This document shows positions 35,774-52,566 of a stretch of DNA of 54,128 bases, one piece after another. The notes below the pieces were generated by a model that was not told the origin of the DNA, searched no databases, and was given only the letters and a program-made list of their open reading frames with translations. The number at the start of each line of letters is the position of its first letter. Within the stretch, counting starts at the first letter, position 1. Made by a program: the position numbers and the translations under genes. The stretch is from positions 1 to 54,128 of the forward strand of contig MEGH01000028.1 in assembly GCA_001725415.1 (NCBI GenBank), written 5' to 3'. Origin of the DNA: Pseudonocardia sp. SCN 73-27. GTDB lineage: Bacteria; Actinomycetota; Actinomycetes; Mycobacteriales; Pseudonocardiaceae.

Positions 35774-35826
35774 GGTTCTCCGGGGCGGACAACGACCGGG
35801 TACCGGCTTGTCCCAGTGGGACAGCG
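35774..35826 (+). promoter_or_regulatory. Two inverted repeats, 32 bp apart, upstream of the solo BMC-H gene
   Basis: Site 1 at 35774-35794: GGTTCTCC-N5-GGACAACG. Site 2 at 35806-35826: GCTTGTCC-N5-GGACAGCG. Both fit CGTTRTCC-N5-GGAYARCG, the motif also found before the BMC operon and the dikinase-like operon. The spacing is three helical turns, so a regulator could bind both on one DNA face. The BMC-H start is 54 bases downstream. Confidence 0.75.
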
Positions 35827-35879
35827 TCGCCCTGGAGCGCCGGAGCTACCGTCGGAGGTCGGCGGCGGAGGGAGCCACG

Positions 35880-36173
35880 ATGGCGGGCAGCGGTGCGCTC
35901 GGAATGATCGAGACCCGGGGTCTGGTCGGCGCGATCGAGGCGGCGGACGCGATGGTGAAAGCTGCGAACGTCGAGATCGAGGGCTACCGGACGCTGCGCA
36001 ACGGCCAGGTGTCGGTGCTCGTGCGCGGCGACGTGGGCGCGGTCAAGGCCGCGGTCGACGCCGGTGCCGCGGCGGCCGCCCGGGTCGGGGAGCCCTGCAG
36101 CGCGCACGTCATCCCGCGCCCGCACGGCGACACCGAGGTCGTCATCGGCCAGTCGGTCGTCCCGCTCGGCTGA
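35880..36173 (+). CDS. BMC-H shell protein (hexameric, Pfam00936) 1
   Basis: 97 aa, one BMC domain: [56 protein letters not shown]. Hexamers of such proteins tile BMC facets. The pore-lining loop, EIGGG in the second BMC-H here, reads TLRNG, placing an Arg near the pore and suggesting different permeability. ATG 35880 follows CGGAGGGAG. Transcribed alone and convergent to the pucR-type gene, ten bases from its end. Confidence 0.96.
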
Positions 36174-36183
36174 CGCTCCCGGG

Positions 36184-38361
36184 TCAGCCCGGGTCGGCGC
36201 CGTCGTCACCCGCCGTCTGGTTGACCTGCAGCAGCCGCAGCGCGAAGTCGGCGCGCATCCGGTCCTCGTGCCGGCTCAGGTCCAGCCCGGTCAGCTGGCG
36301 GATGCGTTCCAGCCGGTACCGCAACGTCTTGTGGTGGACGAACAGCCGCTCGGCGGCGACCCGCTGCGAGCAGTCGGCGTCGAAGAACGCGCGCAACGTC
36401 CGGATGAGGGCGCCGTCGTTGTCGCGGTCGTAGGCGACCAGCGGACCGGTGACGTCGTCGATGAACGTCTGCAGGTCGGGGTCGTCGCCGGAGCCGAGCA
36501 GCAGCCGGACGATGCCCAGCTCCTCGTAGAGGAACGCGTTCTCCCCGCCGAGCCGCCGCGCCGCCGACAGGGCGGTGCGGGCCTCGTTCAAGGCGCCGGG
36601 CAGGTCGACGACGTCGTGGTGCTCGCGGCTGATGCCCCAGGTCATGCGCAGGTCGGGCCACTCCGTGCGGACGGCCGCGGAGAAGGCGTTGACCAGGTCG
36701 CGGGCCTCGCTGCGGCCGAGGTCGGAGGCGATCGCGACGAGCAGGTCCCCGCGCAGACTCGCGAGGCCCAGCCCGCGGCCGTCGTCGAGGGTGCGGACGG
36801 TGCGCAGCACCTGCCGGCGCAACCGTTCGGTGCCGGAGGTGTCCCAGCCGTGCTCGGCGGCGAGCTCCTCGACGTTCTCGATTCGCCCGTGGACGACGCG
36901 CAGCGCCCCGGTGAGCGCGAGCCCCAGCTGCTGGGCGCGGGTGCGGGCGGCGAGCCGGTGCTCGACGGGGCCCTGCAGCAGGTCCCACAGCACCTGTTCG
37001 ATGGCCTCGGCGCGGGCGCGGCTGGCCGCGCGTTCGCGCAGCAGCGCGAGCGAGCAGGCCATGGCGACCTGCCCGGCGGTGGCCTCCATCATCTCGTCGG
37101 AGCCGCCGCCGGGGAGCAGTACGACGTGCCCGACCTGGTCGCCGTCGGCGTAGACGGGCCGCACCCAGCTGCGGTCGGCGACCGCACGGCGCCGTCGCGT
37201 CGGACGCCCGACGGTCGCGGGCAGCGACGACACGAGGCGGCGGCCGCTGTGGGAGGCGAGGAGGGTGCCGTCGGGTCCGTAGACGCCGATCTCGCAGTCG
37301 AGCTCGGCGGCGACGGTGCGCGCGATCGAGGGCAGGCCGCCGCCTTCGACGACCGTCGTGAGCAGGTCGTGCTGCAGCCGTGAGCTGCGGTCGAGTACCG
37401 ACACCTGGTGCTGCAGGGCGTCGCGGGCGCGTTCGGCGTCGGCCCGGGCGGCTGCCTGTTCGTCGTGGAGGCGGGCGTTGTCGATCGCGACGGTCGCGAA
37501 GTCGGCGAGGGTGACCATGCGGCGGACGTCGCGGTCGGTGAAGGTCGACCGCCGGCGCCGCCACACCTCCAGGACGCCGACGAACTCGCCCTGCAGCCGC
37601 ATCGGCACGGCCAGCGCCGACCGGGTCTCCTCCTTCTCGGCCAGCGACATGAAGTCGTTGCTGATCGTCTCGTCGTCGAGGTAGGAGTCGATCTTCGACG
37701 GCTCGCCGGTGAGGAACACGAGCCCGGCGACGCCCTGACCCCGGTGCATCCGCAGCCGGGCGGTCTCGGCGACCCGGTTGCCGACGCACGCGCGCATCCG
37801 CACGACGTCGTCCTCGCGGAGCATGACGCCGCAGATGTCGGAGTCGAGCAGCCGGAGGGTGCGTTCGGCGATGGTGTGCAGGGCCTGGTCGACGTCGCGC
37901 GCGGTCAGCAGCTGGGCGACGACCTCCCGCACGGCCTCGGCCTCGGCGTCGGAGTCCTCGACGCGGCTGCCGGCCGACCGCCCGGCCACGGCGAGGGACA
38001 GCCACACGCAGGTCTGGCGGAGGAGCCCCCGGGTGCCGGCGTCGACGTCGAGGTCCGGGTCCCAGCAGAGCGCGACGGTGGTGCCGGGTGGTGCGACGAG
38101 CCCGCGGCGGTCGGCGCGCCGGGCGGGTGGTCCGGCCGGGGGCAGCCCGGCCAGCCCGGTTCCGGCGCCGGCGAGGGCGCGCCAGCCGTCGTCGGCCCAG
38201 GCGGCGACGGTGACGGGGGTGCCGATGAGCAGCGACGCGTGGGCGGCGACGTCGCCGGCGGCTCCCGCGATGTCGGTGGGTGCCGACTCCAGCAGGGCGG
38301 CGAGGCCGGGCCGGCCCGCGGTCCGGGGGGCCCGGAGCTGCCGGGATTCGGCGGATGTCAT
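36184..38361 (-). CDS. PucR/CdaR-family regulator with GAF domain
   Basis: 725 aa. A variable N-terminal region is followed by a GAF domain (about 130-290; LRLLDSDICGVMLREDDVVRM and RSALAVPMRLQGEFVGVLEV), a central GGDEF-like CdaR region, and the C-terminal HTH_30 (RVAAERLFVHHKTLRYRLERI, then LTGLDLSRHEDRMRADFALRL). PucR-type activators respond to catabolic metabolites. It is the last gene of the BMC operon, 16 bases after the ADH, so a role in controlling this BMC is likely. It competes with the GAF/AAA/Fis protein as reader of the paired repeats. Confidence 0.9.
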   Translation of the reverse strand: MTSAESRQLRAPRTAGRPGLAALLESAPTDIAGAAGDVAAHASLLIGTPVTVAAWADDGWRALAGAGTGLAGLPPAGPPARRADRRGLVAPPGTTVALCWDPDLDVDAGTRGLLRQTCVWLSLAVAGRSAGSRVEDSDAEAEAVREVVAQLLTARDVDQALHTIAERTLRLLDSDICGVMLREDDVVRMRACVGNRVAETARLRMHRGQGVAGLVFLTGEPSKIDSYLDDETISNDFMSLAEKEETRSALAVPMRLQGEFVGVLEVWRRRRSTFTDRDVRRMVTLADFATVAIDNARLHDEQAAARADAERARDALQHQVSVLDRSSRLQHDLLTTVVEGGGLPSIARTVAAELDCEIGVYGPDGTLLASHSGRRLVSSLPATVGRPTRRRRAVADRSWVRPVYADGDQVGHVVLLPGGGSDEMMEATAGQVAMACSLALLRERAASRARAEAIEQVLWDLLQGPVEHRLAARTRAQQLGLALTGALRVVHGRIENVEELAAEHGWDTSGTERLRRQVLRTVRTLDDGRGLGLASLRGDLLVAIASDLGRSEARDLVNAFSAAVRTEWPDLRMTWGISREHHDVVDLPGALNEARTALSAARRLGGENAFLYEELGIVRLLLGSGDDPDLQTFIDDVTGPLVAYDRDNDGALIRTLRAFFDADCSQRVAAERLFVHHKTLRYRLERIRQLTGLDLSRHEDRMRADFALRLLQVNQTAGDDGADPG

Positions 38362-38377: not shown

Positions 38378-39412
38378 TCAGGTCGCGATCAGCGTTTTGA
38401 GCGTACGTCGCTGCGCCATCGCCCGATACGCGTCGGGGACGTCGTCGAGCCCGACGGTCCCGCTCGCGACGACCGTCGGGTCCAGGACGCCGGATGCCAC
38501 GAGGGCGACGAGGGCCTCGCCGTCGCGCATGAGGTCGCCGATAGCGAAGCGCAGCGTGAGCTCGTCGGCGAAGGCCCTGGCGACGGGGAGCGCGAACTCA
38601 GCGCCGGTGTGGACGCCGACCGAGACGATCGAGCCGCGACGTCTGACCAGCGAGAACGCGGTGTCGAGCCCGCGGGGGCCGCCGACCGCGTCGATCACCG
38701 CGTCGGCGCCGCGGCCGTCGGTCAGGCCCGTGACGACGTCGGCCGCCTCCGACGGGTCGGCGACGACCGCGCCCTCCCCGCAGGCCAGCGCGCGTCGCTC
38801 GGCGACGGGTTCGACGAGCACGACCGTCCCGGCACCACATGCCTGGGCGGTCAGGCTGGTCAGCTGTCCGACCGGCCCGCCCCCGACGACGACGACGGTG
38901 TCGCCGGGGGTCAGCCCGGCGCGGCGGACCGCGGCGAAGCCGGTGGCGAGGGTGTCGCCGAGGAACACCGCGGCGTCGAGCCCGATCCCGGCCGGTACCG
39001 GGCGCAGCACGGTGTCGGCGAACGGGACGCGCACCAGCTCGGCCTGGCTCCCGGCCAGCGGGGGGCCGTAGGCGGCGCCGGTACCGAAGAAGCGCCGGTG
39101 CGGGCACTCCCAGTGGTCGCCGCGCCGGCACCACCAGCACGTCCCGCACGCGGTGAAGTCGGCACCGACGACGAGGTCCCCGACGGCGTGCCCGCGCACC
39201 GCGGGCCCGGTCTCGACGACCTCGCCGACGAACTCGTGCCCCATCACGCTGCCGCGGGGGAGGTGCTCGCCGTGGGCGACGGCGTGCAGGTCGGTGCCGC
39301 ACACCGCTGCCCGCCGGACGCGGACGACGGCGTCGGCGGGGTCGTCGAGCAGCGGTTCGGCGACCGACTCGACGCTCACCTCGCCGTTGCCGGTGTAGAG
39401 GACGGCCTTCAT
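38378..39412 (-). CDS. Zinc-dependent alcohol dehydrogenase of the BMC operon
   Basis: 344 aa MDR enzyme. Catalytic zinc CGTDLHAVAHGE and GHEFVGEV, structural zinc CGTCWWCRRGDHWEC, Rossmann VVVVGGGPVGQL. The start overlaps the stop of the lactate/malate-type dehydrogenase (ATGA). In metabolosomes an ADH reoxidises NADH made by the aldehyde dehydrogenase, giving an alcohol by-product; alternatively it produces the aldehyde from an alcohol substrate. No clear encapsulation peptide at either end. Confidence 0.9.
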   Translation of the reverse strand: MKAVLYTGNGEVSVESVAEPLLDDPADAVVRVRRAAVCGTDLHAVAHGEHLPRGSVMGHEFVGEVVETGPAVRGHAVGDLVVGADFTACGTCWWCRRGDHWECPHRRFFGTGAAYGPPLAGSQAELVRVPFADTVLRPVPAGIGLDAAVFLGDTLATGFAAVRRAGLTPGDTVVVVGGGPVGQLTSLTAQACGAGTVVLVEPVAERRALACGEGAVVADPSEAADVVTGLTDGRGADAVIDAVGGPRGLDTAFSLVRRRGSIVSVGVHTGAEFALPVARAFADELTLRFAIGDLMRDGEALVALVASGVLDPTVVASGTVGLDDVPDAYRAMAQRRTLKTLIAT

Positions 39413-40671
39413 GTCGGTGCCAGCGCGCCGAGGCGTTCCCGGATCCGGTCGGCGGCCTCCCGCAGCGCGGCCAGCTCGGCGGGTCGCAGGTCGAGCTCGA
39501 CGATGCCCTGGACGCCGCGACGGCCCAGCCGGGCGGGCAGCCCCACGTAGACGTCGCGGATGCCGTAGCTGCCGTCGGCGAGCACCGCGGCGGGCATGAC
39601 CTCGCCGCGGTCGGCGACCATCGCGAGCACCATCCGCGCCGCCGACGTCCCGGGCGCCATGAACGCGCTGCCCGACCGCAGCAGCCCCACGACCTCCGCG
39701 CCGGAGCCGCGGGCGCGGTCGACGGCGGCGTCGAGGTCGGCGGGCCCGACCCGCTCCAGTATCGGCCGTCCACCCGCCGTGGCCTGAGACAACGGGATCA
39801 CCATCTCCTCGCCGTGGCTGCCCAGCGCGAACGCGGCGACACCGTCCGCGGGCCCGGCACCGGCGAGCGACGCGAGCGCCTGGAACCGCGCGGTGTCGAG
39901 CACCCCCGCCATCCCGACGACCCGCTGCGACGGGAACCCCGACGACGTCCACGCGTGCTGGGTCATCTCGTCGAGCGGGTTGGTGACGACGACGATCACC
40001 GCGTCCGGCGACGTCCGCGCCAGCCGGGACGCGACGTCTCCGACGATCGCGGCGTTCGTCGCGATGAGGTCGGAGCGGCTCATCCCGGGCGTGCGGGGCT
40101 TGCCGGCGGTGAGGACGACGTAGTCGGCGCGGCCCGCCTCCTCGATCGTCCCGACGCCCCGGATGCGGGTGGTGAACCCGCTCAGCGCGGCGGTGTGGGT
40201 GAGGTCGAGCGCGATGCCGGCGGCGCGCCCCTCGTCGATGTCGACGAGCACGACCTCGTCGAACACGTCGGCGTCGGCCAGCCGCATCGCGGCGATCATG
40301 CCGACGTTCCCGGCACCGACGACGACCACGCGCCCGACCCTTTCCGCGTGTCCGGGGACGCGCGCCGACGACCGGGCGACCGGTGCGCCCCGGCGGTACA
40401 GCGCCCCGGACGGCGGGCCGACCCGTCGCGGCGCGTTGCCGAGCCGGGCCGACACCGCGGCGGGGTCGGGGAGCGAACGTGTCGGAGCGGGGACCGGCGG
40501 CAGCGACACCACGGCAGGAGCGGGCGCGGGGGTGCCGACCACGATCTCCACCCCCAGCTCACGGGCCCGTTCCCGGGCCAGCGGGGTGACGACGTCGCGC
40601 GTCCCGACGTGCACGACCCCGGCCCCGCCGGAGACGACCTCGTCGACGGCCGCCGCACCCCACACCGTCAT
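39409..40671 (-). CDS. Lactate/malate dehydrogenase-family enzyme with BMC-type N-terminal extension
   Basis: 420 aa, about 110 longer than standard LDH/MDH. The catalytic part starts VGRVVVVGAGNVGMIAAMRLADADVFDEVVLVD, with LTAGKPRTPGMSR (substrate-loop Arg), VVTNPLDEMTQHAW and LGSHGEEMV (catalytic His). Before it lie a small module (VVHVGTRDVVTPLARERARE, then LGVEIVVG) and a Pro/Ala-rich linker. TPxARxxARExGVEI motifs recur in enzymes of BMC loci such as EutT/EutQ-like proteins, so this is probably a targeting or assembly module. It could recycle NADH in the lumen. Start ATG overlaps the BMC-T stop (ATGA). Confidence 0.88.
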   Translation of the reverse strand: MTVWGAAAVDEVVSGGAGVVHVGTRDVVTPLARERARELGVEIVVGTPAPAPAVVSLPPVPAPTRSLPDPAAVSARLGNAPRRVGPPSGALYRRGAPVARSSARVPGHAERVGRVVVVGAGNVGMIAAMRLADADVFDEVVLVDIDEGRAAGIALDLTHTAALSGFTTRIRGVGTIEEAGRADYVVLTAGKPRTPGMSRSDLIATNAAIVGDVASRLARTSPDAVIVVVTNPLDEMTQHAWTSSGFPSQRVVGMAGVLDTARFQALASLAGAGPADGVAAFALGSHGEEMVIPLSQATAGGRPILERVGPADLDAAVDRARGSGAEVVGLLRSGSAFMAPGTSAARMVLAMVADRGEVMPAAVLADGSYGIRDVYVGLPARLGRRGVQGIVELDLRPAELAALREAADRIRERLGALAPT

Positions 40672-41309
40672 CGCCTGTCCTCCCGGCCGTGCATGTCCTG
40701 CAGCGCGGCGACGGCCGCGTCGCGGGCCGTCTGCACATCGCTCTCGCTGCCCGACAGGAACATCCGGCCGAACCGGCCCACCGCCCGCAGCTCGATCACC
40801 GTGATCGACGCGGCCTTCTCCGCCTCGTTGGCGGCGACGGAGATGTAGGCGGCCGGCGCGACCTCCATGACGAACAGGCTCTGCCCCGGCATGAGCATGG
40901 ATCCCTTGCGCCACTTGTTGAGCAGCTGCGCCTGATAGGGATGGACGTTGGTGATGAACTGCGTCGAGGCGATGGTCGGCTTGATGCGGTCGGCCTCGGT
41001 GAGCCCCAGCTCGTCGAGCACCGCCTGCCCGGAGGCCAGCACCTCGGCCTGCTGCTCGGAGTGGATCTCCAGCAGCCCGAACTCACGCTCGATGATCTGC
41101 AACGCCGGGCGCACCCCGGCGGCCTTCAACGCGATGTCGGCGGCGCGGAACACCTCGTTGCCGGGCGCCATCTCGATGTAGAGCTCGGCCATCCCGGCGA
41201 GGGGGACGTCGCCGGGGCTGGTGGCGGCGATGTGGGCCGCGCACTGCGGCTGCATGCGGTCGACGAAGGCGTAGGTGCGCAGCGTCGGCGCCGGGTTCGA
41301 AGTGCTCAC
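40668..41309 (-). CDS. BMC-T shell protein (tandem BMC domains, trimeric)
   Basis: 213 aa from GTG. Two BMC domains in tandem: LRTYAFVDRMQPQCAAHIA to LQIIEREFGLLEIHS, and PGQSLFVMEVAPAAYISVAANEAEKAA to GRMFLSGSESDVQTARDAAV. Trimers act as pseudo-hexamers with larger, often gated pores for bulky substrates or cofactors. Start overlaps the EutJ-like stop (GTGA 41306-41309). Confidence 0.92.
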   Translation of the reverse strand: MSTSNPAPTLRTYAFVDRMQPQCAAHIAATSPGDVPLAGMAELYIEMAPGNEVFRAADIALKAAGVRPALQIIEREFGLLEIHSEQQAEVLASGQAVLDELGLTEADRIKPTIASTQFITNVHPYQAQLLNKWRKGSMLMPGQSLFVMEVAPAAYISVAANEAEKAASITVIELRAVGRFGRMFLSGSESDVQTARDAAVAALQDMHGREDRR

Positions 41310-42118
41310 GGGGCCGACCTCGCGATCCCGACCGGGGTGATCAGCAGCGCGTGCGGGTACGTCACGACGGTTCGCTCCAGGTAGCCGGCCAGCACGTCGC
41401 CCGCGCCGGGGATCATCAGTGCGCCGCCCGCGAGGTGCAGCGGCAGGTCCTCGTGCCCGACGGTCAGCGCGCGCACGTTCTCCGCGATCCGCTGCAGGCC
41501 GGGCACGAGCACGGGCAGGGCCTCGCGCGGGTTCGCACGCTTGTAGGGCTCGGCCTCCTCCAGCGGGACGCGCAACGCGCCCGCGAGGACGAGGTCGAGG
41601 TGGTGCCCGCCGCCGGCGCGGTCGTCGAGACGCACGAGCTCGCCGTCGCGGTAGACGCCGACACCCGTCGACCCACCGCCCACGTCGACGACGACGCCGT
41701 GCCGCACGTCGAGGGTCCGCTGGGCGGCGGCGACCTCGTCGACGAGTGCGACCTCGTCGAAACCCGCTGCCTCGCAGACGAACGTGCAGGCGCGGGCGTC
41801 GGCGACGGGGATGCACGGGGGATAGGCGGTGGCGGCCGCGCTCAACGAGACGCCGAGCGCGTCCTGAGCCGCGTCGCGCAGTCCCCGGACCGTGGCCACC
41901 GCCCGCGCGAAGTCGACCACGACACCGTCGGCCAGCGCGCCCGACGGGCGGCTGTCGACCCACACCGGCCGGCCGCCCGCCAGCACGACGACCACGCAGC
42001 CGGCGGTGCCGAGGTCGACCCCGACCTGCAGCGGCCCGGCACCGACGTCGCCGGGGACCCCGCCCTCGGCGACCTCGGCCGCGTCGTCGAGAAGGCGGTG
42101 CACGGTGTCCACGAGCAT
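41306..42118 (-). CDS. EutJ-like actin/Hsp70-fold ATPase
   Basis: 270 aa. Phosphate loops VGVDLGTAGCVVVVLAGG and VVVDVGGGSTGVGVYRDGE with GGALMIPG near the C-terminus are the actin/Hsp70 ATPase pattern of EutJ. EutJ proteins are BMC-associated chaperone-like factors of unresolved function, commonly next to acylating aldehyde dehydrogenases, as here. Abuts the aldehyde dehydrogenase gene without a gap. Confidence 0.88.
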   Translation of the reverse strand: MLVDTVHRLLDDAAEVAEGGVPGDVGAGPLQVGVDLGTAGCVVVVLAGGRPVWVDSRPSGALADGVVVDFARAVATVRGLRDAAQDALGVSLSAAATAYPPCIPVADARACTFVCEAAGFDEVALVDEVAAAQRTLDVRHGVVVDVGGGSTGVGVYRDGELVRLDDRAGGGHHLDLVLAGALRVPLEEAEPYKRANPREALPVLVPGLQRIAENVRALTVGHEDLPLHLAGGALMIPGAGDVLAGYLERTVVTYPHALLITPVGIARSAP

Positions 42119-43507
42119 CTACAGCTCCACCGGGTCGTAGACCGTCCGCCACGGCCGCACCTCGTGCGCGATCCGCTTGATGTTGATCAGGTGCAGCGGC
42201 GTCACGTTGTCCGAGCAGATCGAACCGCTCCACGTGCCCGTCCCGAGCTGGAACGAGGGGTCGACCTCCGTCGAGAACCCCATGCCGCCGAACAACGCCG
42301 GGGTGTTGACGACGATCCGCCCCGCCGGCAGCGCCCCGAACGGCGCGATCTCCTCCGGGTCCGACGCGTGTACCGCCGTGGTGTGCCCCTCGCCGTCGAG
42401 GGCGAGGATCTCACGGCACCGACGAAGGCCCGCAGCGGGATCGGCCACCTGGTAGACCGACAGGACCGGCCCGAGGATCTCCCGCGACAGCGGGGTGTCC
42501 GCGCCGACGGTGTCGAGCTTGCAGGCCAGCACCCGCGTCGTCGACGGGACACCGAACCCGGCCAGCTCGGCCAGCTTGATCGCGGTCTGCCCCACCGAGT
42601 CCGGCCGCAGCGCGCCGCGCTCGTCGAACAGCACCCGCACCAGCGCCGTCTGCTGCGGGGCGTTCATCCAGTAGGCACCCCGGGCCTCGAACGCAGCCAG
42701 GAACGCGGGCGCGATCTCGTCGACGACGACCACCGACTGCTCGGCGACGCACGCCGTCCCGTTGTCGAAGGACTTCGAGGTGATGATCATCTCGGCGGCC
42801 TCGGCCGCGTCGGGCACGCTGGCGCCGACGTAGGCGGGCACGTTGCCGGCGCCGACCGCGATCGTCGGCTTCCCGCTGGAGTACGCGGCCCGCACCATCC
42901 CGGGCCCGCCCGTCGCCAGGACGAGCGCGATCTCCCTGCGGCTCATCAGTTCGGCGGTCGCGGGCAGGGTCGGGTTCTCCAGGCAGGAGATCAGCCCCTC
43001 GGGCGCGCCCGCCTTCCGTGCCGCCTCGGCCATGACCTCCGCGGCGCGCAGGGTGCAGCGGGCGGCACGGGGATGCGGCGCGAGCACGATCGCGTTGCCC
43101 GACTTCACCGCGGCCAGGCACTTGAACAGCGCCGTCGACGTCGGGTTGGTGACCGGGATGATGCCCGCGATGACGCCCATCGGGCAGCCGACGGCCGTCA
43201 CCCGGGCCTCGTCGTCGACCCACAGGACCCCGACCGCGCGACGCTCCAGCATCCAGCGCGCCACGAACCCCGTGTTGTAGCGGTTCTTGTGGATCTTGTG
43301 CTCGTAGACGCCGTACCCGGTCTCGTCGACGGCGAGCCGGGCCAGTTCTTCTGCTGCGGCGGTCCCGGCCAGGGCCATGGCCCGAACCCAGGCGTCGAGG
43401 GTGTCCTGGTCGGTGCCCTCGAGCTGCTCGAACGCGCGCCGCGCGGCGCGGGCCTTGACGCGGACGTCCGCGAGGCCGGCCAGGTCGGCGTCCAGTGCTG
43501 CGGTCAT
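42119..43507 (-). CDS. CoA-acylating aldehyde dehydrogenase (PduP/EutE/AdhE type), BMC core enzyme
   Basis: 462 aa. Family motifs: GVIAGIIPVTNPTSTALFKCL, AIVLAPHPRA, LATGGPGMVRAAYSSGKP, the catalytic Cys in SFDNGTACVAEQS, and MGFSTEVDPSFQLGTGTWSG. Converts an aldehyde, NAD+ and CoA to acyl-CoA and NADH inside the shell. The first 25 residues form an amphipathic helix (LADVRVKARAARRAFEQL) that could help packaging. It shows that the compartment handles an aldehyde; which one is not evident from sequence. Confidence 0.95.
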   Translation of the reverse strand: MTAALDADLAGLADVRVKARAARRAFEQLEGTDQDTLDAWVRAMALAGTAAAEELARLAVDETGYGVYEHKIHKNRYNTGFVARWMLERRAVGVLWVDDEARVTAVGCPMGVIAGIIPVTNPTSTALFKCLAAVKSGNAIVLAPHPRAARCTLRAAEVMAEAARKAGAPEGLISCLENPTLPATAELMSRREIALVLATGGPGMVRAAYSSGKPTIAVGAGNVPAYVGASVPDAAEAAEMIITSKSFDNGTACVAEQSVVVVDEIAPAFLAAFEARGAYWMNAPQQTALVRVLFDERGALRPDSVGQTAIKLAELAGFGVPSTTRVLACKLDTVGADTPLSREILGPVLSVYQVADPAAGLRRCREILALDGEGHTTAVHASDPEEIAPFGALPAGRIVVNTPALFGGMGFSTEVDPSFQLGTGTWSGSICSDNVTPLHLINIKRIAHEVRPWRTVYDPVEL

Positions 43508-44385: not shown

Positions 44386-44447
44386 CCGCGGCACCCGGAC
44401 CGGCCAGACTGGACGGACACGACGCCCCCGTGCCAGGAGGTTCACCG

Positions 44448-45449: not shown

Positions 45450-45456
45450 GTCCACG

Positions 45457-46383
45457 GTGAGCGCCCCGCCGGTGCAGGCGGTGATCTTCGACCTCGACGG
45501 CACCCTGGTGCAGACGCGCATCGCGTCGTGGGAGGTGTTCGAGAAGGTCAACCGGCGCCACGACCTCGGTGTCGACGAGCCCGAGCGCTACTTCGACCTG
45601 TTCCGCGGCAACATCTACGACTCGATCGCGAAGCTGTGCCGCGACGAGGCGCACGCCGCGCTCGTCCGCGACGAGTTCCTGCACCTGCTGCGCACCGAGT
45701 ACACCCCGCCGCTCGTGCCCGGTGTCGCCGACGTGGTGCGCCGCCTCGCCGGCTCCTCCACGCTGGCGGTCATGTCGTCCAACGCCATGCAGGTGCTGCG
45801 GCGGGTGCTCACCGCCAACGACCTGGCGTTCTGCTTCGCGCACGTCTTCGGTGGCGACGTCACCCCCGACAAGCGCACCGCCATGCGCACCTTCCTCGCC
45901 GACCCCGGCAGCGGCTTCGGCCGCCGCTGCGCCGCCGACTACGACGAGGCCGGCGTCCGCCCCTTGCCCGACCCCGCCGCGACCGTGCTGGTCACCGACA
46001 CCGCCGGCGACGTCCGCGACGGGCTGGAGGTCGGCATCCGCGTCGTCGGGGTGGCGTGGGGGATGCACAGCGTCGAGGAGCTGGCCGAGGCGGGCGCCGA
46101 GTTCGTCGCGCTCTGGCCGCAGGAGATCACCGCACACCTGTTGGGCGACAGCGCCTCCGAGCCCGCAACGGGCGCCTGCGCACGAGAGCCTGTGAGCGGC
46201 AACGGTCGCCATGGCGACCATTGCCGCTCACGAGGGACGGACGAGCGCGCCCGTGCGGCCGAGGTGCGCCGGTCGCGTCGCCGGGCCGCGGCGCCGCTCA
46301 CCCCTGCTGCCGCTCCACCTGCCGCCGCGTCCTCCGCCGCCGCCGAGCTCCTCGACGCCGTCCGGCGGGTGGTGCGCCGATGA
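45457..46383 (+). CDS. HAD-superfamily hydrolase with a repeat-bearing C-terminal tail
   Basis: 308 aa from GTG. Motif I VIFDLDGTLVQ, motif II LAVMSSNAMQVL, Lys in DVTPDKRTAM, motif IV VLVTDTAGDVRDG: a PGPase-like phosphatase complete by about residue 235. The last 70 residues are foreign to the family, Arg/Ala-rich, and encoded partly by a 40-base palindromic repeat (46192-46231), as if an insertion displaced the original stop. In a locus with a dikinase-like phosphoryl system, a phosphate-ester hydrolase is a plausible pathway or repair enzyme. Confidence 0.85.
   Translation: MSAPPVQAVIFDLDGTLVQTRIASWEVFEKVNRRHDLGVDEPERYFDLFRGNIYDSIAKLCRDEAHAALVRDEFLHLLRTEYTPPLVPGVADVVRRLAGSSTLAVMSSNAMQVLRRVLTANDLAFCFAHVFGGDVTPDKRTAMRTFLADPGSGFGRRCAADYDEAGVRPLPDPAATVLVTDTAGDVRDGLEVGIRVVGVAWGMHSVEELAEAGAEFVALWPQEITAHLLGDSASEPATGACAREPVSGNGRHGDHCRSRGTDERARAAEVRRSRRRAAAPLTPAAAPPAAASSAAAELLDAVRRVVRR
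46192..46231. repeat. Dispersed 40-base palindromic element (copy 2), inside a coding region
   Basis: GTGAGCGGCAACGGTCGCC-AT-GGCGACCATTGCCGCTCAC, 19-base arms with one mismatch; over 90% identical to 32756-32795. It lies within the C-terminal codons of the HAD gene, just after the conserved domain. Confidence 0.88.
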
Positions 46384-47117
46384 CCTCGTCCCCAGCGGGG
46401 AGCGGGCTCGACGGCGCCTTCAACTTCCGCGACCTCGGCGGCCTGCGCGCCGGCTCCGGCTCCCTCGTGAGGCGAGGTGTGTTGTTCCGCAGCGACACCC
46501 TCCAGGCCCGCACCCCGGCCGACGTCGCCCACCTCACCGAACGCCTGCGCCTCGAGCTGATCGTCGACCTGCGGATCGGCCCTGAAGCCGTCTCGGAGGG
46601 GCGCGGCCCCATGGCCGAGGTGCCCGTCAGCTACCTCAACGCCCCGCTGCGCGACCTCCCCGTCTCCGACCTGCCACCCCACGAGCAGAGCCTGCGGTTC
46701 TACATCGAGCACCTCGAGTCGCCGACCTCGGTGCTGTCCACGGTCGTGCGCATCGTCGCCGCCATGGCCGGGCGCCCGGTGCTGCTGCACTGCGCCGCGG
46801 GCAAGGACCGGACCGGACTCGTCGTCGCCCTGCTCCTGCGCCTGCTCGGTGTCGACGACGAGGACATCGTCGCCGACTACCTGCGCTCGGGGCTCAACAT
46901 GCCGCGCATCAAGGAACGGTTCCTCGGCTGGCCGCGCTACCGCGACCACATGGCGACGGTGCCCGGCGAGGTCTACGACGCGCTGGAGTACACGATCCGC
47001 GGCTTCCTCGCCGAGCTCGACGCCCGCTTCGCCGGCGCCCGCGACTGGGCCCACGAACGCGGCATCGCCGACGCCGACCTCGACCGCCTCCGCGCCGGCC
47101 TGCTCACCGAATCCTGA
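46380..47117 (+). CDS. Protein-tyrosine phosphatase-like phosphatase (PtpB-like)
   Basis: 245 aa. N-terminal GAFNFRDLGGLRAGSG and RSDTLQART, and the active-site loop VLLHCAAGKDRTGLVVALLL (HCxxGKDRTG with nucleophile Cys and Lys/Asp as in mycobacterial PtpB-type lipid/tyrosine phosphatases). Overlaps the HAD stop (ATGA). Two phosphatases in tandem facing a dikinase-like operon suggests phosphate-ester chemistry, but the substrate is unknown. Confidence 0.88.
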   Translation: MTSSPAGSGLDGAFNFRDLGGLRAGSGSLVRRGVLFRSDTLQARTPADVAHLTERLRLELIVDLRIGPEAVSEGRGPMAEVPVSYLNAPLRDLPVSDLPPHEQSLRFYIEHLESPTSVLSTVVRIVAAMAGRPVLLHCAAGKDRTGLVVALLLRLLGVDDEDIVADYLRSGLNMPRIKERFLGWPRYRDHMATVPGEVYDALEYTIRGFLAELDARFAGARDWAHERGIADADLDRLRAGLLTES

Positions 47118-47180
47118 CGACCCCCGCGAGGGTGTGCCCCCGGCCGGCGGACCCTCCACCCGCGCGCGACCGCACCGTCG

Positions 47181-47342
47181 TGATTCGGGCTGGGGCCGAC
47201 AGTGAGGTTGCGCCCGAGAAGAGGTCCAGCTGCGGTGCGTCACTGCGCGCCACGGGTGGACCCGGCCGCGGCGGCCAGGGCCCGCGCGCAACCTCGCTGT
47301 CCTGATCTGGGCGCCGGACGACAGGGATGTTGCGCCCGGTTC
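47181..47342. repeat. Intergenic cluster of related GTTGCGCCCG elements
   Basis: Two imperfect 40-base direct repeats (47181-47220 and 47303-47342; cores ACAGTGAGGTTGCGCCCG and ACAGGGATGTTGCGCCCG) plus one inverted copy, GCGCAACCTCGCTGT at 47286-47300, which pairs with 47199-47213 with one mismatch. The core matches the hairpin at 17517-17570. They fill the gap between the convergent phosphatase and dikinase-like genes and could act as terminators. Confidence 0.7.
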
Positions 47343-47378
47343 GCACGTCCCGCCGTAGGGCGTCATCTCGGCACGGGG

Positions 47379-49817
47379 CTACCGCAGGGCGGCCTTGCCC
47401 AGGGCCAGGCGCATGGGGCGGACCTCGCCGGCATCGACGGCGAAGCGTCGGAAGCCCAGATCGTAGAGCTGCGCGACCATCCGCTCCGAGACGCGCCCCG
47501 ACAGCCGCATCCCGACCCGGCACCCCGCGTCCTGCGCCGCGGCGACCCGGGCCAGCAGGTCCTCGACGGCCGGATCGAGTTCCACCCGCGGGTCACAGGA
47601 GAGCATGCCGCGGCGGAGGTAGTCGTCGAGCGGTTCGGCGGTGAGCAGGTGCCGGGCGGGGATGCCGAAGACCGAAGCCTGCAACGTTCGGACCTCCACC
47701 CACAGCACGTCGCCTGCGGCCGCGATCTCCTTGGCCGCGAAGGCCGCCCGCGGCCCGGTGAGATACGCGCCCACCCCGACCGACGAGCCCTGCCCGAGCT
47801 CGCGCAACGCGGCGGCCTCGGCGGCATCGGTGACGTGCCGGACGGCGAGGTGCACCCGCGACGAGCCGGCGGCGCGTTCCAGCCCGCGCAGCTGCGCCTC
47901 GACGAGCGCGGGCCGCCCGAGCGGGACGGTCAGCTCGGGGTGCCGGGTCGTGACGGCGGTCTGCTGCAGCAGCTCGCGGGCCTCGTCGGCGACGAGGTCG
48001 ATCGAGCGGACCCCGATCTCGACGTCGCCCGCGGCCGCGAGCAGTCCCGCGAACTCGGCCGCGACGAGGTCGGCGACCCCGTCGAGAGCTGTGCCCCCGT
48101 CGTCGGCGAGCAGATGCGTGACCAGCCCGTCGAGGTGCCCGGTCGCGACGAGGACGTCGTCGACCGCCGTGACCAGCCCGGACGCGCCGGCTTCCCGGGC
48201 CACCGCGACGTCGGCGGGCAACGTCACCCGCGCGAGGACCTCGGCGCCGTCGGTGGCCATGGCCAGCAGGTCGCCGAGGGCCCCGGTGGCGGCGGCGGGC
48301 GTCGACACCGCGAACCGGCCGGCGAACAGCTCGCCGGTCGCGCCGTCGAGGGAGACCTGGTCGCCCTCGTGCAGGGTCCGGCCGTCGACGGAGAGGGTGC
48401 GGGCGGTCTCGTCGACGCGCAGCGCCCCCGCGCCGACGACGCAGGTCGTCCCCAGCGCCCGGGCGACGACGGCGGCGTGGCTGGTCGAGCCGCCGGTGGC
48501 GGTGACGATGCCCTGGGCGGCGATCATGCCGTGCAGGTCGGCGGGGCTGGTGACGGTCCGAGCCAGCACGACGTCGTCGCCCGCGGCGGCGCGTTCGCCC
48601 GCCCGGTCGGGGTCGAGCACGAGCACGCCGCTGACCTGGCCGGGACAGGCGCCGATGCCCGTCGTCAGCAACCGCCCTCCGGTGCGGGCGGCCGCGACGT
48701 CGCTGTCGGCGAACCCGGGCCGCTGCACCTGCCGCACCTGCTCGACGGTGACCCCGCGCAGCGCGGCGGCGGGCGTCGCCAGTCCTTCGGTGACGAGGTC
48801 GGCGGCGATGCGGACGGCGGCCTCGGGGGTGCGCTTGGCGCTGCGCACCTGCAGCAGGTAGAGCGTCGCGCGTTCGACGGTGAACTCGATGTCCAGGACG
48901 TCGCCCTGGGCGCGTTCGAGTCCGTCGCAGGTCGTGCGCAGCTCGGCGAGCACGTCCGGGGCAAGGGCCTCGGCGACAGGGTCGGGGGTGCGGGTTCCGG
49001 CGACCACGTCCTCGCCCTGGCTGTGCGCGAGGTACTCGCCGAAGAGGCCGGGTTCGCCGGTGACCGGGTTGCGGGTGAACACGACGCCGGAGCCGGAGTC
49101 GTCGGACAGGTTGCCGAAGACCATGGACTGGACGACGACGGCGGTGCCGAGGTCGTGCGCGATCCCGTGGTGCTCGCGGTAGACACGGGCGCGGCGGGTG
49201 TTCCACGAGCGGAACACGGCCTCGATCGCGCCGATCAGCTGTGCGTGGGGGTCGCGGGGGACGGACTCGTCGGTCAGCGCCTCTTCGCACGCCGCCCAGA
49301 CCCGGTCGTACACGGCACCCGGGTCGTCGCCCGGGTCGACGGCGTCGACGAGGGTGTCGATCCCCGAACCGGGGTCGAGCGCGTCGAGCACGGTCTCGGC
49401 GTACATGGCGTGGAAGCGGGCGACGACGTCGGCCATGAACCGGCTGTCGCCGGTGACCTCGGCGAGCGCGACGGCGGCCGACCGGTCGAGGCCGAGGTTG
49501 AGGATCGTGTCCATCATCCCGGGCATCGAGATCGGCGCACCGGAGCGGACAGACAGCAGCAGCGGGACCGGGCCACCGCCGAACGTCTTGCCCGCCTTGG
49601 CCTCCAGCGCCGCGAGCCGGGAACTGACCTCGTCGACGAGCCCGTCCGGGAGGGCGGAGTCGCCGAGATACGCGCGGCACGCATCGGTCCCGATCACGTA
49701 CCCGGGCGGCACCCGCAGACCCTGGCGCGTCATCCGTGCGAGGCCGGAGCCCTTGCCGCCCAGCCGGTCCACGTCGTCCGGGTCGGCCTCGTCGAACGTG
49801 ACGGTGAAGGCGGTCAT
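47379..49817 (-). CDS. Pyruvate-phosphate-dikinase-like protein with degenerate PEP/pyruvate domain
   Basis: 812 aa (true PPDK is about 880). The ATP-grasp part is highly PPDK-like: LGGKGSGLARM, SVRSGAPISMPGMMDTILNLG, VVVQSMVFGNLSDDSGSG and GVVFTRNPVTGE. The phosphohistidine swivel is intact (TGGSTSHAAVVARALGTTCVVG). The C-terminal barrel is not: where PPDK has GIGLCRTEHMF it reads SGLVTAVDD, FGTNDLTQ is replaced by VEVRTLQAS, and the catalytic CGEHGG is VGMRLSGRV. The protein should take phosphate from ATP onto His but cannot make PEP in the usual way, so another acceptor is implied. Last gene of the four-gene operon; its start overlaps the 206-aa gene (ATGA). Confidence 0.88.
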   Translation of the reverse strand: MTAFTVTFDEADPDDVDRLGGKGSGLARMTRQGLRVPPGYVIGTDACRAYLGDSALPDGLVDEVSSRLAALEAKAGKTFGGGPVPLLLSVRSGAPISMPGMMDTILNLGLDRSAAVALAEVTGDSRFMADVVARFHAMYAETVLDALDPGSGIDTLVDAVDPGDDPGAVYDRVWAACEEALTDESVPRDPHAQLIGAIEAVFRSWNTRRARVYREHHGIAHDLGTAVVVQSMVFGNLSDDSGSGVVFTRNPVTGEPGLFGEYLAHSQGEDVVAGTRTPDPVAEALAPDVLAELRTTCDGLERAQGDVLDIEFTVERATLYLLQVRSAKRTPEAAVRIAADLVTEGLATPAAALRGVTVEQVRQVQRPGFADSDVAAARTGGRLLTTGIGACPGQVSGVLVLDPDRAGERAAAGDDVVLARTVTSPADLHGMIAAQGIVTATGGSTSHAAVVARALGTTCVVGAGALRVDETARTLSVDGRTLHEGDQVSLDGATGELFAGRFAVSTPAAATGALGDLLAMATDGAEVLARVTLPADVAVAREAGASGLVTAVDDVLVATGHLDGLVTHLLADDGGTALDGVADLVAAEFAGLLAAAGDVEIGVRSIDLVADEARELLQQTAVTTRHPELTVPLGRPALVEAQLRGLERAAGSSRVHLAVRHVTDAAEAAALRELGQGSSVGVGAYLTGPRAAFAAKEIAAAGDVLWVEVRTLQASVFGIPARHLLTAEPLDDYLRRGMLSCDPRVELDPAVEDLLARVAAAQDAGCRVGMRLSGRVSERMVAQLYDLGFRRFAVDAGEVRPMRLALGKAALR

Positions 49818-50434
49818 TCGGTGCGTTCCCGGCCGAGGGTGCGCAGCAGGTCCTCGTGGAACTCGAACCACACGTTGTGGACCGAGTCGAGCGTCGGCGA
49901 CGACACGTACTCGTGCTCGCCCCGGTCGATCCGGTCGACGGCGGCCGCGAAGCGCGCGGGGTAGGTGCCGAACCGCGCGTCGTGCCCCGCCAGTGCCTCG
50001 AGCAGCGGGCCGAGCCGGGCGATCAGCTTGTCCAGCCGTGCGATGACCTTGTCGTCGTACTCGGAGTCGGAGTGGTCGTTGGCGACCTTGCGGCCCCCGA
50101 CGTCGATCTGCTGCCACGACGACATCGTCGTCAGGAACTGGGAGTTGACGGTCTCGAAACGGTCGACGAGCCCGCCGATCTCCGCGTCCTCGCGTACCGC
50201 GGCGTACCGGACGCCGGCGGCCGTGGCGAGTGCGGGTTCGGCACCGTCGGTCGGCAGCGCCGCGCCCCCGGCGACGACGACCAGGCCCTGTGCGGCGAGC
50301 CGGTCGAACGTGGCCTCGACGTCGGCCTGCGCGACCCCGCAGGCCGCGGCGACGACCTGCGCGGTGGCCATCTTCTTCAGTGCGACGACGTTGAGGACGT
50401 CGTAGTCGGTCTTGTCGGACACGGTCGCGCTCAT
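49814..50434 (-). CDS. 206-aa protein of the dikinase-like operon, winged-helix-like N-terminus
   Basis: 206 aa. Residues 8-55 look like a small winged helix (YDVLNVVALKKMATAQVVAA, then VEATFDRLAAQGLVVV); the rest is helical with KVIARLDKLIARLGPLLEAL and a conserved-looking end, YVSSPTLDSVHNVWFEFHED. I do not recognise the family. The gene is coupled to the dikinase-like gene by overlap, so the product is probably a small subunit or regulator of the phosphoryl-transfer complex, comparable in position only to the third subunit of phenylphosphate synthase. Confidence 0.7.
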   Translation of the reverse strand: MSATVSDKTDYDVLNVVALKKMATAQVVAAACGVAQADVEATFDRLAAQGLVVVAGGAALPTDGAEPALATAAGVRYAAVREDAEIGGLVDRFETVNSQFLTTMSSWQQIDVGGRKVANDHSDSEYDDKVIARLDKLIARLGPLLEALAGHDARFGTYPARFAAAVDRIDRGEHEYVSSPTLDSVHNVWFEFHEDLLRTLGRERTE

Positions 50435-50521
50435 GGATGCCCTCTCACAGCAGGACGGGCGGCGCGGCGGGGGGATGAACATCCGCCAGGTCTATCCGCC
50501 GCGCCGCCCGTCGGGAACGGA

Positions 50522-51955
50522 CTACAGCCAGCGGCCCTTGGAGTTGCGCAGGCTCGCGCCGTCCGGGAAGGGCAGGTAGCCGGCGCCCGAGAAGATCTTG
50601 GAAGGCACCGTCTCCTGGGCGAAGCCGCGCTTGGTGATGTCGTAGTAGTAGTTCGCGACGCGCTGGTCGATCTCCCACAGGTCGTAGTCGCGGCAGGCCT
50701 TGTCGTAGGTCCCGGCCAGCCGCAGGTGCGGGAGGATCATGTCGATGTAGTAGACGTACTGGCCGTTCCAGATGAGGTCGCGACGGCACATCTTCGACGT
50801 CTTCGTGTAGAGCTTCAGCGTCGCCTGCTGGACGCGGCCGAGGTGGTCGCCGAGGTTGTCGATCTTGATCGGGTACACCTCGCCCATCGGGGTGTTCCAC
50901 TTCTCGCGGGCGAACACCGCGCCCCCGACGATGGCCTCGATGTAGTTCTTGGGCCGGGTGAACGTCGTGGAGATGTCGTTGACCCGGATCTCGTCCAGGG
51001 CCATCTTCTCCGGGTCGATCTCCAGGGCGAGGGTGTAGCAGTGCGGCAGGCCCGCGTCCTCGCAGACGTCGCTCCAGTGGAAGACCTCCTCGTTGACGAA
51101 GAGGTCGCGCAGGATCAGCAGGTTGCCGTTGGCCAGCTCGTAGGGCCCGGTGTCACCGAGGCCGAGACGGCAGTCGTAGTGGTCGAGGAACGACAGCAGC
51201 TCGGCGGCGGCGTTGAACTGGGTGAACGCCGAGTGCTTCGCGCTACCGTGCTCGATCGGCTCGAGCTGCCCGACGAGCTGGTCGAGGAAGTCCTGCTCGT
51301 GGATGCGGCAGCGGTAGCGGTCCTGCGAGTTGAGGATGTAGCCGTCCTGGCGCTTGCCCCACAGCACACGCTGCATGAACTTGAGGATCTCGTTGGACTC
51401 GCCGACGTAGTCGCCCGGTCCGATCGCCTCCAGGGCGAGCAGGCCGCAGCGGCCCATGCCGAAGCCGACGGCGCCGATGCACCAGTCGTGCACCGCGTTG
51501 ACCTTCGTGCCGATCTCACGACGCGCGGTCGCGCCGATGTCCATGATCCCCTGGCCGCCGCCGACCTCCTCGGTGGTCATGCGCAGGATCTCGGGCCACC
51601 GGTAGAACTCGTGCATGAAGGCCAGGATCTCGTACTCCTGGCGGGGGATCATGCCGCTGACGCCCTCGGTGGCGCGCATGACGAGCACGTCCCAGATGTT
51701 CCAGGCGAGGTAGTTGTTGAGGTCGTTGAGCTCGTCGATGGTGAACTCGTCGCGCAGCACGTCGTCCTTGGACACCTTCTCCAGGACCTTGCTCTTGGCG
51801 CGCGACTTCATCATCTTGTCGCCCTTGATCCCGTCGGTGACGGGCTCCATGCCGACGAAGTTGCCGGTGTAGGTGAGCGACTGGAACCGGATGCCGTCGT
51901 CGCCCTCCTCGTACCGCTGCTTGTAGCTCGCCCGCTTGCCCTCGGTGGTCGTCAT
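50522..51955 (-). CDS. 477-aa protein of unrecognised family, putative acceptor subunit of the dikinase-like system
   Basis: 477 aa, soluble, unusually rich in aromatic and charged residues for this genome (YKQRYEEGDDG, MHEFYRWPEILRM, VNEEVFHWSDVCEDAGL, MILPHLRLAGTYDKACRDYD, YYYDITKRGF). No P-loop, swivel His motif, Rossmann fingerprint or signal peptide was found. Conserved-looking His/Asp/Glu/Cys clusters (HDWCIGAVGFGMGRCGLLAL, CRIHEQDFLDQL) could form an active site. ATG 51955 follows GAGGGAGGGG. It lies between the swivel protein and the 206-aa gene; 14 bases separate it from the swivel gene. Substrate binding and phosphoryl acceptance is my inference. Confidence 0.75.
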   Translation of the reverse strand: MTTTEGKRASYKQRYEEGDDGIRFQSLTYTGNFVGMEPVTDGIKGDKMMKSRAKSKVLEKVSKDDVLRDEFTIDELNDLNNYLAWNIWDVLVMRATEGVSGMIPRQEYEILAFMHEFYRWPEILRMTTEEVGGGQGIMDIGATARREIGTKVNAVHDWCIGAVGFGMGRCGLLALEAIGPGDYVGESNEILKFMQRVLWGKRQDGYILNSQDRYRCRIHEQDFLDQLVGQLEPIEHGSAKHSAFTQFNAAAELLSFLDHYDCRLGLGDTGPYELANGNLLILRDLFVNEEVFHWSDVCEDAGLPHCYTLALEIDPEKMALDEIRVNDISTTFTRPKNYIEAIVGGAVFAREKWNTPMGEVYPIKIDNLGDHLGRVQQATLKLYTKTSKMCRRDLIWNGQYVYYIDMILPHLRLAGTYDKACRDYDLWEIDQRVANYYYDITKRGFAQETVPSKIFSGAGYLPFPDGASLRNSKGRWL

Positions 51956-51969
51956 CGTCTGCCCCTCCC

Positions 51970-52389
51970 TCAGTCGTTCGCCACGACGCGGCCGACCTCG
52001 TGGTCGGTACAGTCCAGCCGTACGTTGCGCCCGTCGAGGGCCTTCGCGATCTCGTCGAAGTGCGACGGGTCGGTGTTGCCGACGACGTAGCGCGAGTCGC
52101 TGGAGGTCAGGTACGCGGTCATCACGCACGGGGTCTGGAACTCGCGGGACAGGATGCCCAGGTGGGATTCCGGGGCCCCGGACATCGTGATGACGCCGAT
52201 GGCGCCCATGCTCAGGGCCGGCGCGAGGAACGTCGTGGTGCCGCCCTGGACCAGCAGGATGTGCTCGGCGAGCTTCCCCGACTGGATCAGGCTGATGACG
52301 TCGGCCGGGGACTCCAGGTACTTCACCGTTCCGCTGGGGGATTTTCCGGTGTCGAAGACGTTGTAGCCCTCGGCCAGCACGTCGGCCAT
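51970..52389 (-). CDS. Free-standing PEP-utiliser mobile (phosphohistidine swivel) domain protein
   Basis: 139 aa. The family's mobile-domain core GAIGVITMSGAPESHLGILSR, followed by EFQTPCVMT, places a His where PEP synthases and PPDK carry the phosphorylated His (usually GGxTSHAAIVAR). In PEP synthase this domain is fused between ATP-grasp and PEP-binding parts; here it is a separate protein, as in split systems such as phenylphosphate synthase. First gene of the four-gene leftward operon, with AAGGAGG before the start and paired inverted repeats upstream. Confidence 0.85.
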   Translation of the reverse strand: MADVLAEGYNVFDTGKSPSGTVKYLESPADVISLIQSGKLAEHILLVQGGTTTFLAPALSMGAIGVITMSGAPESHLGILSREFQTPCVMTAYLTSSDSRYVVGNTDPSHFDEIAKALDGRNVRLDCTDHEVGRVVAND

Positions 52390-52513
52390 GGATGTTCCTC
52401 CTTGAACTGGTGGGTCGCCCCGGCAATGCCGCCCGCAGGTGAGCGTGCGGGGCCGCGCCTGTGGCCACGCGGGGAGTTGCCTCCGTCACAGTGCCGTGGA
52501 TCACCAGCGTCGC

Positions 52514-52566
52514 CGATGGACCGCGCGGATAGAACTGTCCGAGGGCGTTGTCCGGCCCGGATAGCG
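52514..52566 (-). promoter_or_regulatory. Paired inverted repeats upstream of the dikinase-like operon
   Basis: Site 1 at 52546-52566: CGTTGTCC-N5-GGATAGCG (near-ideal). Site 2 at 52514-52534, offset by 32 bp, keeps mainly the right half (GGATAG). The same arrangement occurs before the solo BMC-H gene and the BMC operon. Site 1 is 157 bases upstream of the swivel-protein start. Confidence 0.68.

Follow-up and report, generated by a model that had tools for sequence, protein, structure and literature searches.

A MIC1-type microcompartment locus paired with a dikinase operon in Pseudonocardia sp. SCN 73-27, and a proposed route for a small tertiary allylic alcohol

Bacterial microcompartments (BMCs) of the classical metabolosome types (PDU, EUT, GRM and RMM) each have a signature enzyme of their own, and one further type, the Metabolosome with Incomplete Core 1 (MIC1; Axen 2014, PMC4207490), which a 2021 BMC catalogue also mentions, was described without a signature enzyme or phosphotransacylase. 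The subject of the present analysis is a locus of Pseudonocardia sp. SCN 73-27 (bases 1-54128 of contig 28, the whole of which is here called the window, in a genome of 6.95 Mb) in which shell genes lie alongside a four-gene operon in the order swivel-p477-p200-PPDK-like, encoding a free phosphohistidine swivel protein, a 477-residue protein of no known family, an accessory protein and a relative of pyruvate phosphate dikinase (PPDK). The original prediction had listed a complete shell set (two BMC-H, BMC-T and BMC-P) with a CoA-acylating aldehyde dehydrogenase (ALDH), EutJ, an alcohol dehydrogenase (ADH) and an enzyme of the lactate/malate dehydrogenase (LDH/MDH) type, all of which were found by Pfam scans, and an operon of a dikinase-like protein, a free swivel protein and two unrecognised proteins, on which Pfam and NCBIfam scans and the GC frame plot agree. 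It had also held that the usual signature enzymes are missing, and no diol dehydratase, ethanolamine lyase, glycyl-radical enzyme or PduL/phosphotransacylase family matched among the 20 open reading frames (ORFs) that were scanned at the locus and beside it, with no genome-wide search for them (five genes were scanned upstream of 32.2 kb); in this the locus differs from the classical types. Its surmise that the locus type might already be catalogued holds for the shell part, which fits MIC1 on all of the gene-content features compared: an ALDH with shell genes, LDH/MDH-type and Zn-binding dehydrogenases, a hydrolase, a phosphatase and an MreB-like protein (here a haloacid dehalogenase (HAD)-family phosphatase, Y_phosphatase3 and an EutJ with an MreB/FtsA match), and no phosphotransacylase. 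However, neither a dikinase nor phosphoenolpyruvate (PEP) appears in the MIC1 section or main text of that report, and here a dikinase operon is linked to the shell locus.

Three other described systems bear on the operon. The closest characterised kinases are the two-component dikinases HpeHI, CreHI and PpsAB (PMC12167813), which have in common with it an ATP-grasp domain, a swivel phosphohistidine, an acceptor-binding part and a catabolic role; here, by contrast, the ATP part is PPDK-derived and contains a swivel domain, a further swivel is encoded as a separate free protein, and no kinship of p477 with an acceptor domain of known structure is detectable in the PDB by sequence, profile or fold. 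The acceptor domain of the HpeHI type is related to the rifampin-binding domain (PMC12167813). The 25-hydroxysteroid kinase/25-phosphosteroid lyase system of Sterolibacterium (PMC8449060, PMC7411048; PDB 9G2I, 9FZN, 9G4C) is similar in that a tertiary alcohol is ATP-activated as a phosphate ester and the phosphate is then lost, but it has a steroid substrate and a kinase giving ADP, and a BMC does not figure in its description. Linalool isomerase and linalool dehydratase-isomerase (PMC4791888) convert a tertiary allylic to a primary alcohol by 1,3-transposition, but by other proteins, and ATP use is not mentioned in the available part of that paper. For Aquincola tertiaricarbonis L108, Methylibium petroleiphilum PM1 and Pseudomonas putida MB-1, the same source suggests that 2-methyl-3-buten-2-ol (MBO) may be isomerised to prenol on the way to mineralisation, by enzymes given as uncharacterised as of 2016 (PMC4791888). 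We propose that the window encodes a MIC1-type metabolosome whose signature chemistry uses ATP to activate a small tertiary allylic alcohol, most likely MBO, a reading that we hold to be moderately probable and for which we infer every reaction and the substrate.

Linkage of shell and dikinase genes

The pairing of shell and dikinase genes is real and goes beyond chance, since the gene set recurs across Actinobacteria, Alpha- and Betaproteobacteria, an Eremiobacterota metagenome-assembled genome (MAG) and Acidimicrobiia. Within the family, p477 (at least 79% identity) occurs in 13 of 249 genomes, the window's own included, and BMC-T (at least 83%) in the same 13, always on one contig and about 9-11 kb apart; elsewhere in the family, four genomes have distant p477 paralogues only (33-41%) and one has a 55% BMC-T only. 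Orthologues of both are likewise confined to the same 5 of 195 Bradyrhizobium genomes, 6-9 kb apart, with 39-41% BMC-T copies only in two further genomes of the genus. Hypergeometric probabilities for these orthologue sets are 6e-22 and 4e-10, respectively, with genome kinship ignored. Of the two findings named as refuting the original prediction, separate occurrence of dikinase-like and BMC genes and a classical signature enzyme just outside the locus, neither was made, the second within the 20 ORFs scanned.

Searches with p477 located 55 loci in named genomes (numbered with an L below), 46 of which have at least one shell gene, and the PPDK-like gene usually adjoins p477 and the second swivel protein. 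Among the nine loci without a shell gene, four stop at or near p477 (L011, L012, L024 and L055), two (L041 and L052) belong to genomes with a BMC locus on another contig (L097 and L096, respectively), and three, from Methylocella (L036), Xanthobacter (L042) and Endobacter (L045), are free of shell genes over the flanks retrieved, with no genome-wide search made for such genes. Nor did any of these three genomes yield a close acylating ALDH, two giving none at all and Methylocella one of 36%. In the Eremiobacterota MAG (L044:10001-11800), a BMC locus is accompanied by swivel and p477 genes, and the part retrieved of its 210-kb contig lacks p200 and PPDK-like genes; the ATP component must there be supplied from elsewhere or have been lost.

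The gene order in Methylocella, Xanthobacter and Endobacter is ADH, acyl-CoA ligase, NAD-dependent ALDH, DUF7064, HAD, swivel, p477, p200, PPDK-like and PucR, with genes of methylcrotonyl-CoA carboxylase (MCC) type and others inserted between the NAD-dependent ALDH and DUF7064 in Endobacter; the ADH, ligase and ALDH of the former two are 60-80% identical to those of Endobacter. A 31-kb Paraburkholderia plasmid stretch (L103) also has DUF7064, HAD, dikinase, ADH, ALDH and ligase genes and no shell genes. It follows from these BMC-free sets that DUF7064 and HAD are part of the dikinase unit, and that conversion of the aldehyde to the acid and on to the acyl-CoA can replace the acylating ALDH.

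The aldehyde and the carbon level of the substrate

The acylating ALDH falls in the acetaldehyde dehydrogenase/AdhE group, its TIGR02518 score of 465 bits lying below the cut-off of 620. Its active site, FDNGTACVAEQ, is found in 48 of 48 alignment rows, or 43 of 43 distinct genes covering the motif given that some loci overlap (L034, L037, L040, L053 and L056, whose rows do not span the motif, are left out, as are loci with no ALDH in the stretch retrieved). The residue before the catalytic Cys is Ile or Val in six of six comparison genes, chosen by hand from weaker plasmid hits, Ser in a distant Methylocella homologue (L093, 35%), and Ile in five PDB relatives (the ones displayed among 15 hits), two of these five presumably being one E. 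coli enzyme. According to the title of Becher 2018 (cited in PMC7176365 and PMC6300920), the CoA-acylating prenal dehydrogenase of bacteria owes its unique substrate specificity to the alanine just ahead of the catalytic cysteine, and this enzyme oxidises prenal to 3-methylcrotonyl-CoA (PMC6300920). The ALDH of the window resembles it in being CoA-acylating and in the Ala that precedes the Cys, and is predicted to act on prenal.

The Endobacter operon encodes both subunits of a biotin-dependent carboxylase. The best PDB matches of the alpha subunit are methylcrotonoyl-CoA carboxylase alpha, and the beta subunit scores highest against 9YX0 (an unnamed carboxyl transferase; 772 bits), 9TPS (763), Pseudomonas MCC-beta (3U9R, 762), AccD1 (761) and mitochondrial MCC-beta (8J4Z, 735), followed by geranyl-CoA carboxylase beta at 447 bits and other propionyl-CoA carboxylases at 259 or less; these scores place the subunit with the MCCs. 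Next come BioB, a MaoC-type hydratase, an HpcH/HpaI lyase, SCOT subunits and, by eye, the start of a thiolase, and the genes from carboxylase to thiolase would form a route from 3-methylcrotonyl-CoA to acetyl-CoA. Genes of this type directly adjoin shell genes on the Rhodococcus oxybenzonivorans plasmid pRB98 (beta, 68% to Endobacter, with alpha and MaoC; no NCBIfam model scored above its cut-off for this beta subunit) and in Nocardia jiangxiensis (L098; beta, 66% to Endobacter, with alpha and SCOT). They were not seen in the fetched flanks of other loci, many of which stop inside BMC genes.

The Ala-Cys motif and the carboxylase linkage independently indicate the C5 aldehyde prenal, which is likely to be the aldehyde of this BMC. 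Three other assignments were examined and set aside: acetaldehyde as the aldehyde of the compartment, on account of the Ala-Cys motif; the geranyl-CoA level, by the beta subunit (447 versus 762 bits); and acetone activation, which the Endobacter SCOT and thiolase would fit, the MCC-type alpha and beta, MaoC and HpcH/HpaI lyase fitting 3-methylcrotonyl-CoA better.

Phosphoryl transfer, the proposed model and its rivals

Over residues ~6-609 the PPDK-like protein aligns with pyruvate phosphate dikinase (415 bits to 9PZL). Its swivel His is kept in 53 of 53 aligned proteins, that of the window included and short copies and copies with a stop left out, and their N-terminal domains retain the SMPGMMDT stretch. 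No PEP-binding domain (PEP-utilizers_C) was detected in the window protein or in three of four other orthologues scanned, the fourth giving a weak partial match above the cut-off. The free swivel protein has an invariant His76 in SGAPESHLGILSREF (17 of 17 aligned sequences), and the two proteins thus present the architecture of an ATP-grasp domain with a swivel His. For p477, no match was obtained in Pfam or NCBIfam and no significant PDB relative by sequence or profile, and an AlphaFold2 model (mean pLDDT 80.7, pTM 0.85) gave no significant PDB fold match. The protein is highly conserved, with a mean column identity of 80% across 35 sequences (the alignments comprised 35 p477, 17 swivel and 27 DUF7064 sequences out of those collected). 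Its closest named relatives are from Pseudonocardia, the top match being P. dioxanivorans CB1190 at 95% identity. We infer that ATP handling and phosphoryl transfer have been uncoupled from pyruvate and that p477 is the acceptor protein. Distant p477 paralogues (~24-39% identity) occur in genomes of the same genus, several clustered in twos or threes and some with swivel genes, and form a wider unnamed family. Separately, the Rhodococcus opacus B4 plasmid pROB02 (L104:7470-9848) encodes a 793-aa protein in which swivel, p477-like and p200-like parts are naturally fused and whose gene adjoins P450, ALDH, ADH, phosphatase and Rv3169-family genes.

The DUF7064 protein shares its fold with 25-phosphosteroid lyase, which a PDB search with a DUF7064 profile did not list at E values up to 10, no sequence homology thus being detected. 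That lyase acts on tertiary-alcohol phosphates (PMC8449060, PMC7411048). As the phosphoryl transfer potential of a tertiary steroid phosphate ester is slightly above that of the ATP beta,gamma bond (PMC8449060), a phosphohistidine dikinase could be an apt donor for such an ester.

These data allow the following model. The PPDK-like protein would spend ATP, probably together with inorganic phosphate, in phosphorylating a swivel histidine, and the free swivel protein would deliver the phosphoryl group to the alcohol bound by p477, giving a tertiary phosphate ester. The DUF7064 protein may then ionise the ester, allowing it to rearrange to the isomeric primary allylic compound (prenyl phosphate or prenol), and any leftover phosphate could be removed by the HAD phosphatase. 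An alcohol dehydrogenase would form prenal, which in the shell would be converted by the acylating dehydrogenase to 3-methylcrotonyl-CoA, with NADH recycled by the LDH/MDH-type or Zn-ADH enzyme, and MCC and the leucine route would complete degradation. Phosphoryl transfer as the signature chemistry is well supported by context, and MBO, our best guess, is the starting alcohol with reasonable probability. We are evenly balanced on whether the locus unites three things: a dikinase that acts on a small aliphatic tertiary alcohol, a BMC supplied through phosphoryl transfer, and the enzyme so far missing between MBO and prenol. The original prediction that ATP-driven phosphorylation could feed an aldehyde to the BMC is supported as an interpretation: the alcohol among its candidate acceptors gains from the prenal-type motif, the MCC-type genes, the lyase-fold partner and the HAD phosphatase, and the enol or ketone, like a phenol, has become less likely.

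Methylibium PM1, for which the MBO-to-prenol route has been suggested, carries on its plasmid a shell locus of the same type (BMC-T 72%; ALDH 63-65%, with the Ala-Cys motif). A second, diverged set lies ~22 kb off (L099:40079-47131 and L102:13446-22314 of the plasmid), with DUF7064 (46%), p477 (32%), swivel (34%) and p200 (34%). A Rieske oxygenase/reductase pair, which we take to be mdpJK, has a second PPDK-like gene (43%) on one side and a phosphatase (33%) on the other. The genes beside the diverged set are read as a hydroxyisobutyryl-CoA mutase cluster, so that PM1 retains a full set of diverged dikinase parts in an apparent tertiary-alcohol gene region, possibly a related tertiary-alcohol activation system.

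Several observations weigh against the proposed model or its simplest form. The dikinase operon local to the PM1 shell genes is damaged, consisting of a swivel remnant that precedes an N-terminal p477 fragment (query residues 14-109), with no p200. Homologues of the ligase and/or the ALDH and ADH are found in BMC-bearing loci as well (L029, L034, L035, L056 and L100), as is the ligase alone (L009, L014 and L059), which speaks against a plain substitution of these enzymes for the BMC. As a caution on the carboxylase, 9TPS, among the top matches of the Endobacter beta subunit, is labelled a propionyl-CoA carboxylase beta.

Four rivals have to be weighed. It is possible, if unlikely, that the dikinase acts on another tertiary or branched C5 alcohol, such as isoprenol or products of tert-amyl alcohol, that enters by the same prenal/3-methylcrotonyl-CoA step; the evidence above supports the C5 level and not the starting alcohol, and the second PM1 dikinase set is near the Rieske pair. 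However, no oxygenase gene was seen inside the ADH/ligase/ALDH and dikinase runs of Endobacter, Methylocella and Xanthobacter, and the input should therefore match prenol in oxidation level from the start, as MBO does.

Action of the dikinase on a phenol, enol or ketone, in the manner of phenylphosphate synthase, CreHI and HpeHI and with the aldehyde formed later, would agree with the architecture shared with two-component small-molecule dikinases. Yet neither an aromatic ring-cleavage enzyme nor a P450 was seen among the neighbour families common to at least four loci (judged by eye from partial sequence, with no family models), p477 finds no significant PDB match, and the DUF7064 fold and MCC linkage indicate a branched aliphatic alcohol, so that such an acceptor is improbable and a tertiary allylic alcohol the more likely one. 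An EUT-like acetaldehyde BMC, with the dikinase operon a mere genomic neighbour of separate role, is suggested by the proximity of the ALDH to acetylating acetaldehyde dehydrogenases (TIGR02518; PDB 5J78) and by the three relatives that have the operon without nearby shell genes. This is very improbable, however, as the orthologues co-occur completely in two lineages, Ala replaces the Ile/Val of the comparison enzymes, and DUF7064 and HAD, located here between the shell half and the dikinase operon, remain alongside the dikinase genes in sets that lack the BMC. Least probable of all is an ordinary PPDK that serves gluconeogenesis by making PEP while the cell grows on the substrate of the BMC, rejected because the protein, for all its retained PPDK motifs in the ATP and swivel domains, fails the TIGR01828 cut-off (residues 8-609, 557 bits against 843.45), has a PEP-binding domain undetected in four of five proteins scanned and weak in one, and usually neighbours p477 and a second swivel protein.

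Gene content of the window and its wider meaning

The gene list (Table 1) is based on Pfam and NCBIfam scans, with frames backed by the GC frame plot. Three genes that the original prediction had left out of its text, those of DUF7064/7065, the HAD phosphatase and Y_phosphatase3, separate the shell half from the dikinase operon, and a 475-aa minus-strand ORF at 45939-47366 was rejected as a gene, the frame plot favouring the plus-strand HAD and phosphatase genes.

Table 1. Predicted features of the BMC/dikinase locus, in window coordinates
Feature	Position	Strand	Basis and remarks
BMC-H shell protein 1	35880-36173	+	PF00936 E 9e-29; homologues 65-83% at several related loci
PucR-family regulator (GAF + HTH_30)	36184-38361	-	Pfam; homologues adjoin many related loci
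Zn-dependent alcohol dehydrogenase (ADH2)	38378-39412	-	PF08240/PF00107; syntenic in relatives
LDH/MDH-type dehydrogenase, ~115-residue N-terminal extension	39409-40671	-	PF00056/PF02866, PRK06223
BMC-T shell protein	40668-41309	-	PF00936; orthologues 70-97% identical
EutJ / MreB-like protein	41306-42118	-	PF14450, PF06723 (FtsA/MreB match)
CoA-acylating ALDH, predicted prenal dehydrogenase	42119-43507	-	PF00171; motif FDNGTACVAEQ (Ala before Cys)
BMC-H shell protein 2	43590-43922	-	PF00936
BMC-P shell protein	43959-44252	-	PF03319
DUF7064/7065 (Rv3169-like), predicted phosphate lyase/isomerase	44361-45449	+	real start possibly more internal
HAD-family phosphatase	45457-46383	+	PF13419
Tyrosine-phosphatase-family protein (Y_phosphatase3)	46380-47117	+	PF13350 E 4e-49; not found at many related loci
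PPDK-like dikinase	47379-49817	-	PPDK N-terminal ATP domain and swivel retained, PEP/pyruvate domain degenerate
p200 accessory protein	49814-50434	-	N-terminal weak winged-helix similarity (MarR_2 E 7e-4, below cut-off); syntenic
p477, predicted alcohol-binding/acceptor subunit	50522-51955	-	no known family
Free phosphohistidine swivel protein, 139 aa	51970-52389	-	His76 in SGAPESHLGILSREF; weak match to PEP-utilising swivel domains

The N-terminal extension of the LDH/MDH-type enzyme is conserved, 24 of 25 long tblastn rows starting at query residue 20 or earlier (the window copy and some overlapping loci included); on Rhodococcus pRB98 the enzyme begins without the ~115-residue extension, and a small hypothetical gene lies just upstream. 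A PF00936 profile search of the whole genome returned four matches, three at the locus and one on another contig. On contig 6 (L006:4778-9865) a second BMC locus has a BMC-H gene beside ORFs that by eye resemble RuBisCO large and small subunits and further carboxysome genes, and looks like an alpha-carboxysome. Downstream, at 52719-54128 and L005:1-4553 (also L013 and L047), are PfkB kinase, SAM synthetase and MTHFR-family genes, partly common to a few Pseudonocardia beside the BMC/dikinase locus and joined in L013 by a formyl-transferase/ACT gene; this group gives the impression of a separate C1 module.

Some pines emit MBO, which is also a pheromone of bark beetles (PMC7728719). If the proposed model is true, a BMC type left unassigned in the 2014 census would gain a definite substrate and a set of signature enzymes open to testing, with prenal, a reactive and toxic C5 enal, as the BMC intermediate. 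The model would also provide candidate genes for the isomerisation of MBO to prenol (PMC4791888) and could name genes for a soil sink of this biogenic volatile. For the organism, the locus would then represent a kinase-fed organelle by which a soil actinobacterium breaks down a hemiterpene alcohol, a tertiary alcohol of plant origin.

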